A stretch of DNA of 64,000 nt from a virus. Shown here one piece after another: positions 29,786 through 34,237 of the stretch. The notes under the pieces were generated by a model. That model did no database searches. It was not told the origin of the DNA and was given only the letters and a program-made list of their open reading frames with translations. The stretch spans positions 1 through 64,000 of IMG/VR virus record IMGVR_UViG_3300032282_002092; one strand, given 5' to 3'. How positions within the stretch are numbered: position 1 is the first letter of the stretch; each line of letters begins with the position of its first letter. The position numbers were made by a program, and so were the translations under genes.

Positions 29786-30883
29786 CTACTTTCTGGGGGC
29801 GTACCACCCATTGCTTCCGTCCCTCAGGGACTCAAGACGTGTTAACCAATTATCGTACATATCAGCGCATTTGTCTATGCCACATAAGTTTATGGCCCGG
29901 TTACGCCAATGGTTTCCACGAGTCAACTGGGCTAGTTCTACGGACTCAATGGCCTGCTCCATATTCCGGTACCGGTATGGGGGAGGAAGCGTTTCGGTAA
30001 ACACTCCATAATCGGGAGCGACTACACCGACACCTGACATCATGGCCTCTGCGTGGACACCTTCCCACGGCCCGATATACAAAGTGGGACAAATAAATAC
30101 TTCGGCTTCCGCAAATAACTTCTTGCGTGCCTCACCGGTAACACCGCCAATGTGCTCAATATCCCCAGTAATGACAGTGCCATCGGTAGCCACTACCTTG
30201 CCCGGTTCTTGGTGAGCCACCCCACCACCAGCCATGATCAGTTTCAGTCCCGCTGCATTGGCGATCTGTGCAGCAACATGCGGCCCCTTGCGGTGTATAA
30301 GACGGCCCACAAACAGTGCGTACCCCTGTGACTCTGCCTTGTACCACTCGTTGGGATCAACAGCATTGGGGATCACCACATCGAACGCACGGCCATCACC
30401 GATTCCATATGCCCCATATCGGTTGTGCATCCACGCATATGACTCATAACAGGCAAATGTGTCCTTGGAAATGCCCTCGTAGCCGACCCCCGGTTCGATG
30501 ACCGTGTACTGGTCCTTGTACTTGGCAATCAGTTCGTGGCTGATAGAACCGCCAATAAAGCCGATGATGTCGCCGGGTTTCAGGGCGTTATCCAAGTGAG
30601 TAACAGCACGCTCATGGAACAGTTGCCAGTACGGAAGGCTGGACACCCACTCAATCTTGGGCAGTTCGGAAGGTTCCCAGACCCCGAAAAACTGTTCCTG
30701 TTCATCCCTTGACAGGCAGGAGACATCACCTTTGTCACCGCCCCAATAGACTGTTACGTCCCAGTTCTTAGAGCGCAGCATTCTGGCAAGTCTTACGGCC
30801 TTTGCCGTGAAAGCACAGTATGAGAATTCGTTGTCGTCAAACTGTGTGTGGGGGAGGCCGACTAGGTGAATAGTGGGTCGCAT
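29786..30883 (-). CDS. GT-B glycosyltransferase (GT4-like)
   Basis: 365 residues. The C-terminal Rossmann lobe shows LFVGRLIHRKGPHVAA, LKLIMAGGG and VFICPTLYIGPWEGVHAEAMMSGVGVVAPDYG, the nucleotide-sugar site with the EGxHAEAM acidic motif of GT4-like retaining enzymes. The ATG at 30883 has no Shine-Dalgarno but lies 7 nt after TAAAGT, so it may be leaderless; a 30-codon longer frame is rejected. It lies between the lysins and the collagen-like fibre and diverges from a methyltransferase. Likely target: a virion or cell-surface glycan. Confidence 0.82.
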   Translation of the reverse strand: MRPTIHLVGLPHTQFDDNEFSYCAFTAKAVRLARMLRSKNWDVTVYWGGDKGDVSCLSRDEQEQFFGVWEPSELPKIEWVSSLPYWQLFHERAVTHLDNALKPGDIIGFIGGSISHELIAKYKDQYTVIEPGVGYEGISKDTFACYESYAWMHNRYGAYGIGDGRAFDVVIPNAVDPNEWYKAESQGYALFVGRLIHRKGPHVAAQIANAAGLKLIMAGGGVAHQEPGKVVATDGTVITGDIEHIGGVTGEARKKLFAEAEVFICPTLYIGPWEGVHAEAMMSGVGVVAPDYGVFTETLPPPYRYRNMEQAIESVELAQLTRGNHWRNRAINLCGIDKCADMYDNWLTRLESLRDGSNGWYAPRK

Positions 30884-30890
30884 GTCGCTC

Positions 30891-30905
30891 ACTTTATCGT
30901 ATACT
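30891..30905. promoter_or_regulatory. divergent leaderless promoter pair
   Basis: Only 29 nt separate two divergent start codons. Plus strand: TATACT (30900-30905), 7 nt, ATG. Minus strand: TAAAGT (30896-30891), 7 nt, ATG. Neither gene has a convincing Shine-Dalgarno. -35 elements are weak and would lie inside the opposite gene. Confidence 0.5.
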
Positions 30906-30912
30906 TTCGCAC

Positions 30913-31509
30913 ATGACTTGGAACCAAGAGCAGGAGTGGGAACGTCAGTGGTGGGGAGACTGCACCAACACATTTGCCGAGGAAACCAAGCAGATCACCT
31001 ACGCACACCGCATGGGACTCCAGAACTTGTCAGATGGAGCGCATTGGCCGCTTTACCACCTGAATGGGAAGTCAATACTTGACATTGGAGGTGGCCCGGT
31101 TTCCATGCTCCTCAAGACTGATGGTGGTGGTTACCGCAAGGTGGTTGACCCGTGCCGTTACCCGGCTTGGGTTTACGCACGTTACGAGATTGCTGGCATC
31201 AACTGGGACATCGCACCGGGGGAGAACTTCGACCTGTCACAGACATACGACGAGGTTTGGATATACAACGTCTTGCAGCACACCGATGACCCTGAGGTGA
31301 TCATCGCAAACGCCCGAGAGGTTGCCCATACGATCCGCATCTTTGAGTGGATCGACATCCCGGCACACCCCGGCCATCCGCAGATGTTGACCAAGGTCAA
31401 GTTGGACGAGTGGCTACAGGGTGATGGGACTGTCGAAGACTTCCGTTGGAAACCTGAGAACGGATGCAACCAAGTCGCTTACTACGGTGTATTTAGGACG
31501 ACGCAATAG
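30913..31509 (+). CDS. class I SAM-dependent methyltransferase
   Basis: 198 residues. Motif I is [13 protein letters not shown], an acidic residue follows at the end of the next strand (KVVDPCRY), and motif IV-like [15 protein letters not shown] precedes a later [14 protein letters not shown] strand. This is the compact Rossmann methyltransferase plan often acting on sugars or small groups. It is one of few plus-strand genes, probably leaderless, and its 3' end overlaps the convergent collagen-fibre gene by 17 nt. Substrate unknown. Confidence 0.82.
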
Positions 31510-34237
31510 CGATGTAGTACCAGTCTCTTGCTGCTGTCCAGTTAGTAAGTGCGCCAGCAGAATAAGCACGGTTCGTCAACGTAAATCCTGAAGTTGTAAC
31601 ACTTTCAACTTGATATGTAGTGTTGTTGGCAGAATATGCGACAGCCGCACCTCTTAATGCAACTGTGACAATCACTGTGGTGCCGGTTGGAAAAGCAGAG
31701 GAGAATGTCACAGCAATTGATGATGTGCTAATTAAAGATGTAAATGTACCGGATCGGTAGTTGACAAGTAAGTTTGTTCCAACACTCGCAGCAAGTGATG
31801 TTACATCATAATAACCACCACGGCTTGTTCCACCAGTTTCAAAGATTCGTAAACGGTTCTGATAAACGTCGATACTTACACCGGTTGACAGAGTGCTGCC
31901 GCTTGACGGTGCTGCTAAGTTAACCTGTCCACCCTCATTAGCAAGTGATTGAGTAACAGTTAGCAGATTGGCACTGAGTTGTGATCCGTCCCATGTAAGC
32001 GACGATGATCCTCCTAATGCACCAGAGTTATTGAACTGAACCTGAGTGTTGGAACCACCGATTGCTGGAGTCGAACCCGTTGCTCCTGTTACCCCCGTAA
32101 CTCCTGTTACTCCCGTAACTCCCGTAACTCCCGTAACGCCTGCGCCCGTTACGCCTGTCACACCGGTTACACCGGTTACACCGGTTACGCCAGCACCGGT
32201 AACGCCTGTCACGCCAGTGGTGCCTGCTGGGCCTGTTGCACCGGTCACGCCTGTCACGCCAGCACCTGTTACACCGGTCACCCCAGTTACACCTGTAACT
32301 CCTGTAACTCCTGTAACGCCTGCTCCCGTAACGCCGGTTACTCCCGTAATACCTTGTGGACCCGTGGCTCCCGTTACGCCTGTTACACCAGCACCGGTCA
32401 CACCAGTTACGCCGGTAACCCCGGTAACCCCGGTTACACCAGCGCCCGTAACACCAGTTACGCCAGTCGTGCCTTGCGGACCAGTCGCACCGGTAACACC
32501 AGTTACGCCCGCACCAGTTACGCCGGTAACCCCGGTAACCCCGGTTATCCCGGTTATGCCAACGCCGGTTGCTCCGGTAACGCCTGTAGTACCTTGCGGA
32601 CCTGTCGCTCCCGTAACGCCCGTTACTCCAGCACCGGTAACACCAGTCACTCCAGTCACTCCGGTAGTACCTACCCCTGTTGGCCCGGTGACTCCGGTGA
32701 CACCTTGCGGACCTGTCGCTCCCGTAACGCCCGTTACACCCTGCACACCCGTCGCACCGGTGACACCAGTAACGCCCGTAACGCCTGTTATGCCAACACC
32801 CGTTGCACCGGTAACGCCCGTGACTCCTGTTGCGCCCGTTACTCCAGTTACTCCAGTTACTCCAGTTACTCCTACACCTGTCACGCCAGTGGTTCCGACA
32901 CCAGTCGCACCAGTTGCACCAGTTACGCCAACGCCTGTCGGTCCAGTTGCGCCCGTTGCTCCGGTTACTCCGGTTACTCCGGTACCGGTTGCTCCAGTTA
33001 CGCCAGTAACGCCGGTAGTGCCTACCCCTGTTGGCCCGGTGACTCCGGTGACACCTTGCGGACCTGTCGCTCCCGTAACGCCAGCGCCGGTTACTCCCGT
33101 TGTACCAGCGGGACCTGTTGCCCCAGTCGCACCGGTTGGCCCCAACTGTGTATACATGACCTGCTGTGCAGTAACAACAATCGAAGCAGTAGATGGCCGT
33201 GTTGGCGAGGTATCAGTTGGGTTTGTAGCAATCCAAACAGATGTATTTGTCGTAGACCACCAGAACTCATAGTAATCACCAGCATCGACAGTGAATACAA
33301 AGTTCCAAGCAGGCAAGACATGCCCGTCAGTGCCACCATGACTGCTCGTAATGGCAACGTCGCCGCGAGAACCTACTACGTCTACACCGTTCTTACGCAT
33401 CCAGACTGATACGTCATGTATTGAACTACTTGTATTCTGGAACTCAGCAGACCACTGAAGGTTGTATGTGCCAGCGTAATCAAATGTTATGCGAGTACCG
33501 CTAACGATGCGTACACCGTTGTTCTCGTCGGTTGTGCCAAGCCTGAATGCTGCTGCGACGTTCGCTGTTGCGGCACCAGAAGTGCTGGCACCGCCTGCAT
33601 ACTGGTTGGTGTAATCAGAGAAAGCACCGTAATAACCAAGTGCTCCACCAGCACCAGTCGCACCAGTAACACCCGTTACTCCCGCACCAGTTACGCCAAT
33701 TGGCCCAGTAGCCCCAACAGGTCCAGTAGCCCCAACAGGTCCAGTAGCCCCAACAACACCTGTCGCACCAACGGATCCAGTAACACCGGTTACTCCCGTG
33801 GCTCCTTGCGGCCCGGTTGCTCCCGTGACTCCGACATCACCTTGTGGACCAGTAGCGCCAGTAGCGCCAGCAGGACCCGTCGCACCTGTGGCTCCCGCAA
33901 TACCTTGTGATCCGGTTGCTCCCACTGGTCCAGTAGACCCCGTGGAACCGGCCGGTCCCGTCGCTCCCGTGACACCTGTTACCCCCGTAACCCCACTAGG
34001 ACCGGAAGGCCCGGTCACGCCAGTAACGCCTGTTGCTCCAGTAGGACCAGTCGGTCCCGTATGTCCGATGGGTCCAGATGGACCGGTGGCTCCGGTTGGG
34101 CCAGATGGACCTGTTGAACCGGCGGTGCCAGTTACTGGCAGTAGGTTCCACGAGATGCCGTCCCATTCCCAAGTATGGTCATCCGTTACATAGGTTGCAC
34201 CTATAGCGGGATTACTAGGAAACGAGAGGGCTGTCAT
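31493..34237 (-). CDS. collagen-like tail fibre
   Basis: 914 residues. N-terminal head ([25 protein letters not shown]) common in phage fibres; Gly-X-Y collagen-like segments at about residues 37-196 and 370-727, dominated by [13 protein letters not shown] and GAG; a folded C1q/TNF-like domain between them ([11 protein letters not shown]...[15 protein letters not shown]...AGDYYEFWW); and a beta-rich tip (728-914). Expected to form a triple-helical fibre. Threonine in the third position is very frequent, a potential O-glycosylation substrate. The shadow plus-strand frame over the repeats is not a gene. Confidence 0.85.
32056..33130. repeat. collagen-coding repeat tract
   Basis: About 1 kb of degenerate 9-bp units encoding Gly-Val-Thr, Gly-Ala-Thr and Gly-Pro-Gln triplets on the minus strand. 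Larger blocks recur, for example around [15 protein letters not shown]. Such tracts expand and shrink by slippage or recombination. Confidence 0.75.
33702..33755. repeat. three 18-bp tandem repeats
   Basis: GGCCCAGTAGCCCCAACA followed by two copies of GGTCCAGTAGCCCCAACA within the first collagen-like segment, encoding VGATGP units. The near identity suggests recent duplication. Confidence 0.75.

Follow-up and report, generated by a model that had tools for sequence, protein, structure and literature searches.

Genes at the locus

The window analysed here comprises the first 64,000 bases of a virus record of 73,457 bases (IMGVR_UViG_3300032282_002092). Within it, a glycosyltransferase gene (GT), a methyltransferase gene (MT) and the gene of a collagen-like tail fibre lie side by side, and the two enzymes are considered here as candidate modifiers of that fibre. 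Coordinates refer to the window, and the features of the locus are as follows:

29786..30883, minus strand: GT4-like GT-B glycosyltransferase, 365 amino acids from Met31 (Pfam, PHROG 3408 and AlphaFold2 (AF2) model); the longer open reading frame (ORF) spans 29786-30973
30884..30912, no strand: divergent intergenic stretch from GT start to MT start, 29 bases (read directly from the sequence)
30913..31509, plus strand: class I S-adenosylmethionine (SAM)-dependent methyltransferase, 198 amino acids (PHROG 3603, 1.3e-56)
31493..34237, minus strand: collagen-like tail fibre, 914 amino acids, the proposed substrate (PF01391, E 1.2e-47; PHROG tail fibre families)
about 34133-34237, minus strand: N-terminal domain of the fibre, followed by the first collagen block
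about 33140-33643, minus strand: middle globular domain of the fibre, followed by the long GVT/GAT collagen block
about 31496-31996, minus strand: C-terminal domain of the fibre, after the long GVT/GAT block

The convergent MT and fibre genes share 17 bases (31493-31509). An earlier annotation of this DNA, made from the letters alone (the sequence-only reading), had placed a GT-B glycosyltransferase and a class I methyltransferase beside the fibre, divergent from each other, with the MT gene running into the 3' end of the fibre gene: the arrangement is as it described, and the profiles and AF2 folds agree with both enzyme classes. The word TATACT was observed in the 29-base gap, 7 bases before the ATG of MT, a position from which divergent transcripts may be leaderless. 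Leaderless transcripts are common in Actinobacteria.

The glycosyltransferase

The listed GT start at 30973 is probably too early and the true start is probably 30883, because homology begins at Met31; a start at 30973 would make GT overlap the MT gene. Two Pfam models matched GT over cut-off: PF13692 (Glyco_trans_1_4; 33.2 bits, cut-off 27) and PF00534 (Glycos_transf_1; 32.3 bits, cut-off 26.4). The protein also matched PHROG 3408 (1.1e-27), and a hydroxylase domain was absent by Pfam scan.

The AF2 model of GT (predicted local distance difference test score, pLDDT, 95) has a GT-B fold with two Rossmann domains. The structural search that the sequence-only reading had suggested as a check was carried out on this model with VIA-align and returned GT-B enzymes, the best match being tll1591 (7fg9; Z 30.9, 313 residues, 2.9 A, 18% identity), with AviGT4 (2iuy) at Z 29.2 (301 residues, 2.8 A, 24% identity). 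For the 50 structures listed, Z lay between 23.4 and 30.9 and the aligned length between 279 and 328 residues; by title they were, with few exceptions, glycosyltransferases or related synthases. AviGT4 and tll1591, the nearest solved folds among those listed, share the GT-B architecture with GT but differ from the role proposed here in that, according to their entry titles, they belong to antibiotic synthesis and to transfer to sugars or glucans.

In the alignment of 58 family members, R194, K199 and E279 were invariant (58/58). With the EX7E motif of GT4-like enzymes as reference, the second Glu is E279, present throughout, and the first, at position 271, was found in 50/58; in the window and seven other members, G271 and a Glu three residues on (E274) replace it, always together in all eight. 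As a GT4-like enzyme, GT would transfer a sugar from a nucleotide donor.

The methyltransferase

The AF2 model of MT (pLDDT 93) is a Rossmann-type methyltransferase; its best VIA-align match was UbiG (Z 16.1), with many others within 1, and nearly all the structural matches listed were SAM-dependent methyltransferases by title. The glycine-rich motif I reads DIGGGP, of which D57 and G59-G61 were invariant in 47 aligned sequences. All Pfam methyltransferase models scored below cut-off for MT (the best, Methyltransf_23, at 16.3 bits against a cut-off of 27), and no match was obtained when MT was compared with the PDB sequences. The class I assignment was made from fold and motif, not from Pfam family, and the modelled fold would not by itself identify the acceptor.

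The collagen-like fibre

The fibre is the sole collagen gene in the 73,457-base record as judged by PF01391, all 11 matches falling in its frame. In runs of at least three triplets there are 161 Gly-X-Y triplets, and Thr occupies Y in 131 of them and X in 7; Pro stands at X in 27, Lys or Arg is absent (0) and Asp or Glu occurs once. The long Gly-Val-Thr and Gly-Ala-Thr tracts of the sequence-only reading were recovered in runs of at least six triplets (GVT 53/124, GAT 27/124). The fibre would form a trimer. No Pfam model exceeded its cut-off in the N-terminal, middle or C-terminal domain; H_lectin and DUF6302 matched the C-terminal domain at 0.034, under the Pfam cut-off.

Collagen genes near members of the GT family

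Viral loci were searched with a GT profile and the best 80 were taken, which formed 52 clusters at 80% identity; neighbourhoods were analysed in the 49 cluster representatives of at least 9 kilobases (kb). A collagen ORF lay within 3 kb of GT in 33 of these 49. Among the 35 loci having collagen, GT was at most 1.5 kb from it in 27, where the remaining genes of those loci led to an expectation of 10.3 (Poisson-binomial P 4e-10); this within-locus test used plain ORFs and the triplet pattern rather than gene calls, and edge bias favours GT, which stands at the locus centre.

At the level of whole records, PF01391 was found in 41/46 GT-family records (39 over cut-off; 36/40 by cluster) and in 4/38 random viral records (3 over cut-off), the latter drawn by an arbitrary 15-mer and not matched by phage type. 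The difference was significant (Fisher 8e-14; 5e-13 by GT clusters), with median record lengths of 45 and 44 kb.

The family also adjoins collagen genes in Synechococcus phages, to which all 51 GenBank phage records matching GT belonged: ACG-2014f runs from collagen through a small gene, MT, GT, a 2OG-Fe(II) oxygenase and another small gene to a tail fibre, and in S-CAM7 and S-CBWM1 collagen-like genes stand directly before GT. A PF13640 2OG-Fe(II) oxygenase was found in 7/49 GT records. It adjoins GT in ACG-2014f, G064 and G068, and in S-CAM7 a single gene separates the two; PF13640 had no match in the record of the window. Among bacterial and metagenome-assembled contigs, seven had collagen within four ORFs of GT (L265, L267, L274, L278, L279, L283 and L288), and Nocardia loci with the GT family (L266, L268-L273, L275-L277, L281, L286 and L292) had no collagen ORF within four ORFs on either side. 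The lysin and sheath of the window, used as queries, found no related viral loci and so were of no use as controls.

Because the same GT adjoins collagen genes in many otherwise unrelated viruses, phages that carry this family beside collagen genes probably bear a coat of methylated sugars on their collagen fibres. This linkage also bears on an explanation that we consider unlikely, namely that the two enzymes alter a glycan on the host surface, for instance to block superinfection, and stand at the fibre locus since both serve host interaction. GT4 enzymes commonly build surface polysaccharides, as this explanation would have it. In two papers, phage glycosyltransferases are interpreted as acting on the host surface or on DNA: for pelagimyophages, where many of these enzymes are encoded in the tail-fibre region, the target is taken to be the host surface (PMC7029224), and such a role is among those offered for the enzymes of freshwater actinophages (PMC10202952). 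However, a host-glycan role does not predict that one glycosyltransferase family should track with collagen, and GT and MT sit in the structural region. The GT2 family (PF00535), taken as control, was over cut-off in just 4/46 of the same records, too few for a distance comparison.

Pairing and fusion of GT with methyltransferases

An IMG/VR query with MT returned 61 loci, and a GT homologue lay within 1.5 kb of MT or was fused to it in 45 of them. The GenBank phage matches of MT (45 records) were again all Synechococcus phages.

In the GT tree (n = 86), 19 members were extended at the C-terminus by 110 residues or more; 18 of these extensions were classified as methyltransferase and 1 was unclassified. 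The 18 fusions comprised 10 Methyltransf_23, 5 of the MT kind of the window (two from the same contig), 2 FkbM and 1 Methyltransf_24. Nine were Pfam-scanned and the rest classed by likeness to seed sequences; the scan found Methyltransf_23, FkbM or Methyltransf_24 in 6/9, and the remaining three, of the MT kind of the window, were recognised by the MT profile and had no Pfam methyltransferase. The tree, built by a quick method and with several weak forks, requires at least 11 changes of fusion state, the unclassified extension being counted as a state. These changes, together with the four kinds of fused domain, argue that several kinds of methyltransferase joined GT repeatedly.

A different fusion was observed at L045 (3869-5719), where a GT family member follows a GT2 (PF00535) domain in one protein; upstream lie a collagen ORF and MT. 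L056 is arranged in the same way.

Sharing between unlike phages

Blastp (1e-6; ORFs of at least 80 amino acids, low-complexity masked) was run between the record of the window on one side and L063, L065 and the entire L064 contig on the other; this procedure is blind to likeness between collagen blocks. GT was shared at 65-72% and MT, which is not in L065, at 61-68%; besides these, only two ORFs were in common (30-43% identity). The divergent GT/MT order is kept in L063 and L064, and in L063 a Thr-rich collagen lies 2.3 kb from MT with two genes between. We infer that GT and MT move between phages as a unit, because they are nearly all that the record has in common with otherwise unlike phages.

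In L064, MT adjoins a non-collagen protein of 708 amino acids. This would suit a second explanation, in which the target of glycosylation is a different virion protein, be it the capsid, the tail tube or some non-collagen fibre, in the manner of mycobacteriophages, and collagen is only a neighbour; glycosylation of mycobacteriophage capsid and tail-tube proteins is cited in PMC12619734, and some GT records had no detected collagen. Yet all tailed phages have a capsid, while collagen is present in 41/46 GT records and few random ones, a linkage that this explanation leaves unexplained; we regard it as rather improbable.

In L063, a UDP-glucose dehydrogenase and an SDR sugar-nucleotide enzyme (8991-11230) were observed past the 3' end of GT on the other strand. 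As a hint on the donor, they may point to a uronic acid or a pentose.

Proposed modification of the fibre

With moderate confidence, we read the GT-MT-fibre locus as a phage cassette that modifies its own collagen fibre by O-glycosylation, the sugars being methylated. It would proceed as follows. The tail fibre made by the phage is collagen-like and carries Thr at most Y positions, the chains presumably assembling as trimers. Inside the host cell, while the chain is unfolded or still folding, GT would put a sugar on the hydroxyls of the Y-position Thr residues; the fibre is proposed as substrate because of the linkage to collagen genes, and Thr as acceptor because of the composition. GT4 enzymes are retaining, and the linkage would then be alpha. 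The class I methyltransferase would O-methylate the added sugar, a step suggested by the recurrent pairing of GT with MT and by its fusion to several kinds of methyltransferase. The glycan might stabilise a Pro-poor triple helix that has no hydroxyproline, and it might also, or instead, alter receptor binding or shield the fibre. According to PMC3368898, Thr glycosylation is cited as a route to collagen stability, and recombinant collagen-like proteins of E. coli prophages were found unglycosylated.

The sequence-only reading had proposed, from position and composition, that the enzymes modify the neighbouring fibre. The GT-collagen linkage, the GT-MT pairing and fusion and the sharing between phages support this in part; the substrate remains an inferred one, and the threonine richness on which that reading had leaned gives weak support. 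Median Thr at Y was 0.59 in GT-linked collagens; the 79 phage collagens used for comparison had 0.11 (p 1e-8), and the X position did not differ. Among uncharged, Pro-containing collagens, a cut of 0.4 Thr at Y, chosen post hoc, was reached by 27/27 GT-linked loci and 9/15 others.

Several results weigh against the proposed modification. When the composition was restricted to collagens with Pro of at least 0.08 and charged residues below 0.1, Thr at Y was 0.60 vs 0.53 (27 and 15 loci, p 0.37). In a converse test on 50 records drawn by a Gly-repeat pattern, full-length GT was found in 3, with partial hits in 5; 15 of the 50 had Thr at Y of at least 0.4, and only 2 of these 15 carried full-length GT, 13 being without it. 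MT of the window's type lay within 3 kb of GT in only 7/49 representatives, so that methylation by this family would be optional. At 16 of the 61 MT loci, some of them cut by contig ends, GT was missing from the 1.5 kb around MT. Collagen went undetected in 5/46 GT records and in 20/48 records of the MT/GT set, and MTs are often without it. In L064, a near relative, collagen lies 5.4 kb from GT and 4.8 kb from MT, with six or seven ORFs between collagen and MT. Finally, fibre loci are hot spots of recombination, where passengers could be gathered.

Threonine richness alone is weak evidence and does not identify the GT substrate, because uncharged phage collagens are Thr-rich also without the GT family. 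As to the converse test, full-length GT occurred in 0/38 random records (one 20-bit partial hit), and 3/50 is not clearly higher; in the three collagen records, GT and a collagen ORF were always at most 2.3 kb apart, and in one of them MT adjoined as well. An earlier version on cut loci had given a single weak GT match near 79 collagens, and many of those loci had no flanks, hence the use of whole records. Of the co-occurrence of the three genes that the sequence-only reading had looked to in relatives, GT was seen with collagen in 41/46 records and with MT at 45/61 MT loci, and MT of the window's type near 7/49 GT representatives; relatives keeping the enzymes without the fibre, which it had named as counter-evidence, were partly seen, in virus records that may be fragments.

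The recombination hot spot leads to a third explanation, very improbable in our judgement: GT and MT would be hitch-hiking passengers (morons) with unrelated roles. The orientation of MT, reversed between the fibre and GT, is in keeping with this, as is the comparison with Streptomyces phage BRock, which is collinear with the window from baseplate to terminase (capsid 57%, portal 56%). BRock gp139 and gp142 match, in order, the genes at 24549-25382 and 35105-35671, which flank the following feature:

25383..35104, no strand: stretch of about 9.7 kb that includes GT, MT, the fibre gene and the lysins besides other genes; the BRock equivalent is about 1.9 kb and consists of a hypothetical gene and a tail fibre gene

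The place is therefore insertion-prone. That neither a PF01391 nor a GT-profile match was found in BRock counts in favour of the proposed modification. Passengers would not, however, be expected to show recurrent GT-MT fusions, pairing at 45/61 MT loci and joint sharing by unlike phages.

If O-methyl-glycosylation of the fibre is taken beyond this locus, one may tentatively picture a widespread mobile cassette, a possibility on which we do not insist: a GT4-like family dedicated to Y-position Thr of collagen fibres would have been paired time after time with methyltransferases of differing kinds, in some cases also with a 2OG-Fe(II) oxygenase, and the sugar would replace hydroxyproline in the maturation of tailed-phage collagen.

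Relation to known systems

In PMC4691112, Mimivirus L230 is described as a lysyl hydroxylase and glucosyltransferase that glycosylates the virus's own collagen-like proteins. The likeness lies in a virus-encoded enzyme that acts on its own collagen and in a glycosyltransferase fused to a second modifying domain. Unlike L230, which acts on hydroxylysine, the window pairs a GT4-like enzyme with a methyltransferase and a fibre that has no Lys or Arg; neither a hydroxylysine acceptor (0 K/R) nor a fused lysyl hydroxylase was found, the window GT having no hydroxylase domain and the record no PF13640. A Mimivirus-like hydroxylysine route was considered and rejected, as there is no Lys among the 161 fibre triplets.

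The BclA-type collagens of the Bacillus exosporium have Thr-rich repeats, O-glycans and O-methylated sugars. The fibre resembles them in its Thr-rich collagen repeats (Thr at Y in 131/161) but is a phage protein, whereas BclA is cellular and borne on spores. Mycobacteriophage virion glycans are said, after Freeman in 2023, to be made by phage-encoded glycosyltransferases. As cited in PMC12619734, those glycans likewise stand on virion proteins but at the C-termini of capsid and tail-tube subunits; the target proposed here is a collagen repeat.

Phages are already known to glycosylate their virions, and glycosylated collagens are known as well. No paper on glycosylation of phage collagen fibres was found in searches of open-licence PMC papers. 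If the proposed modification is true, an enzyme family annotated in phages just as glycosyltransferase gains a likely substrate, and the folding of Pro-poor phage collagens without hydroxyproline becomes testable; the family would also offer candidate enzymes for glycosylated recombinant collagen, and the cassette would let phages change the surface of their host-recognition fibres.

Genome backbone and neighbouring genes

A tail sheath gene is present in the window, and the backbone is closest to Streptomyces myophages (terminase 45-48%, sheath 32%). The host is likely actinobacterial, because of this nearest backbone and because L063 encodes WhiB. A megablast of positions 24000-40000 against phage records gave no match.

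Two lysin-like genes precede GT in the window:

27889..29001, minus strand: GH25 muramidase with PG_binding_1 (PF01183 2.3e-20, PF01471 1.9e-12)
28983..29807, minus strand: VanY/M15-type peptidase with PG_binding_1 (PF02557 1.1e-14, PF01471 1.8e-18)

They adjoin one another among the tail genes (27889-29807), each with its PG_binding_1 domain, and we do not assign them to the modification system. A VanY-like gene, weak and below cut-off, likewise comes after GT in L065. Towards the end of the window (55039-63998), and in L405 (127-2732), there is a run of minus-strand genes for proteins of about 180-320 amino acids, several of them alike by eye, which is perhaps a paralogous expansion.

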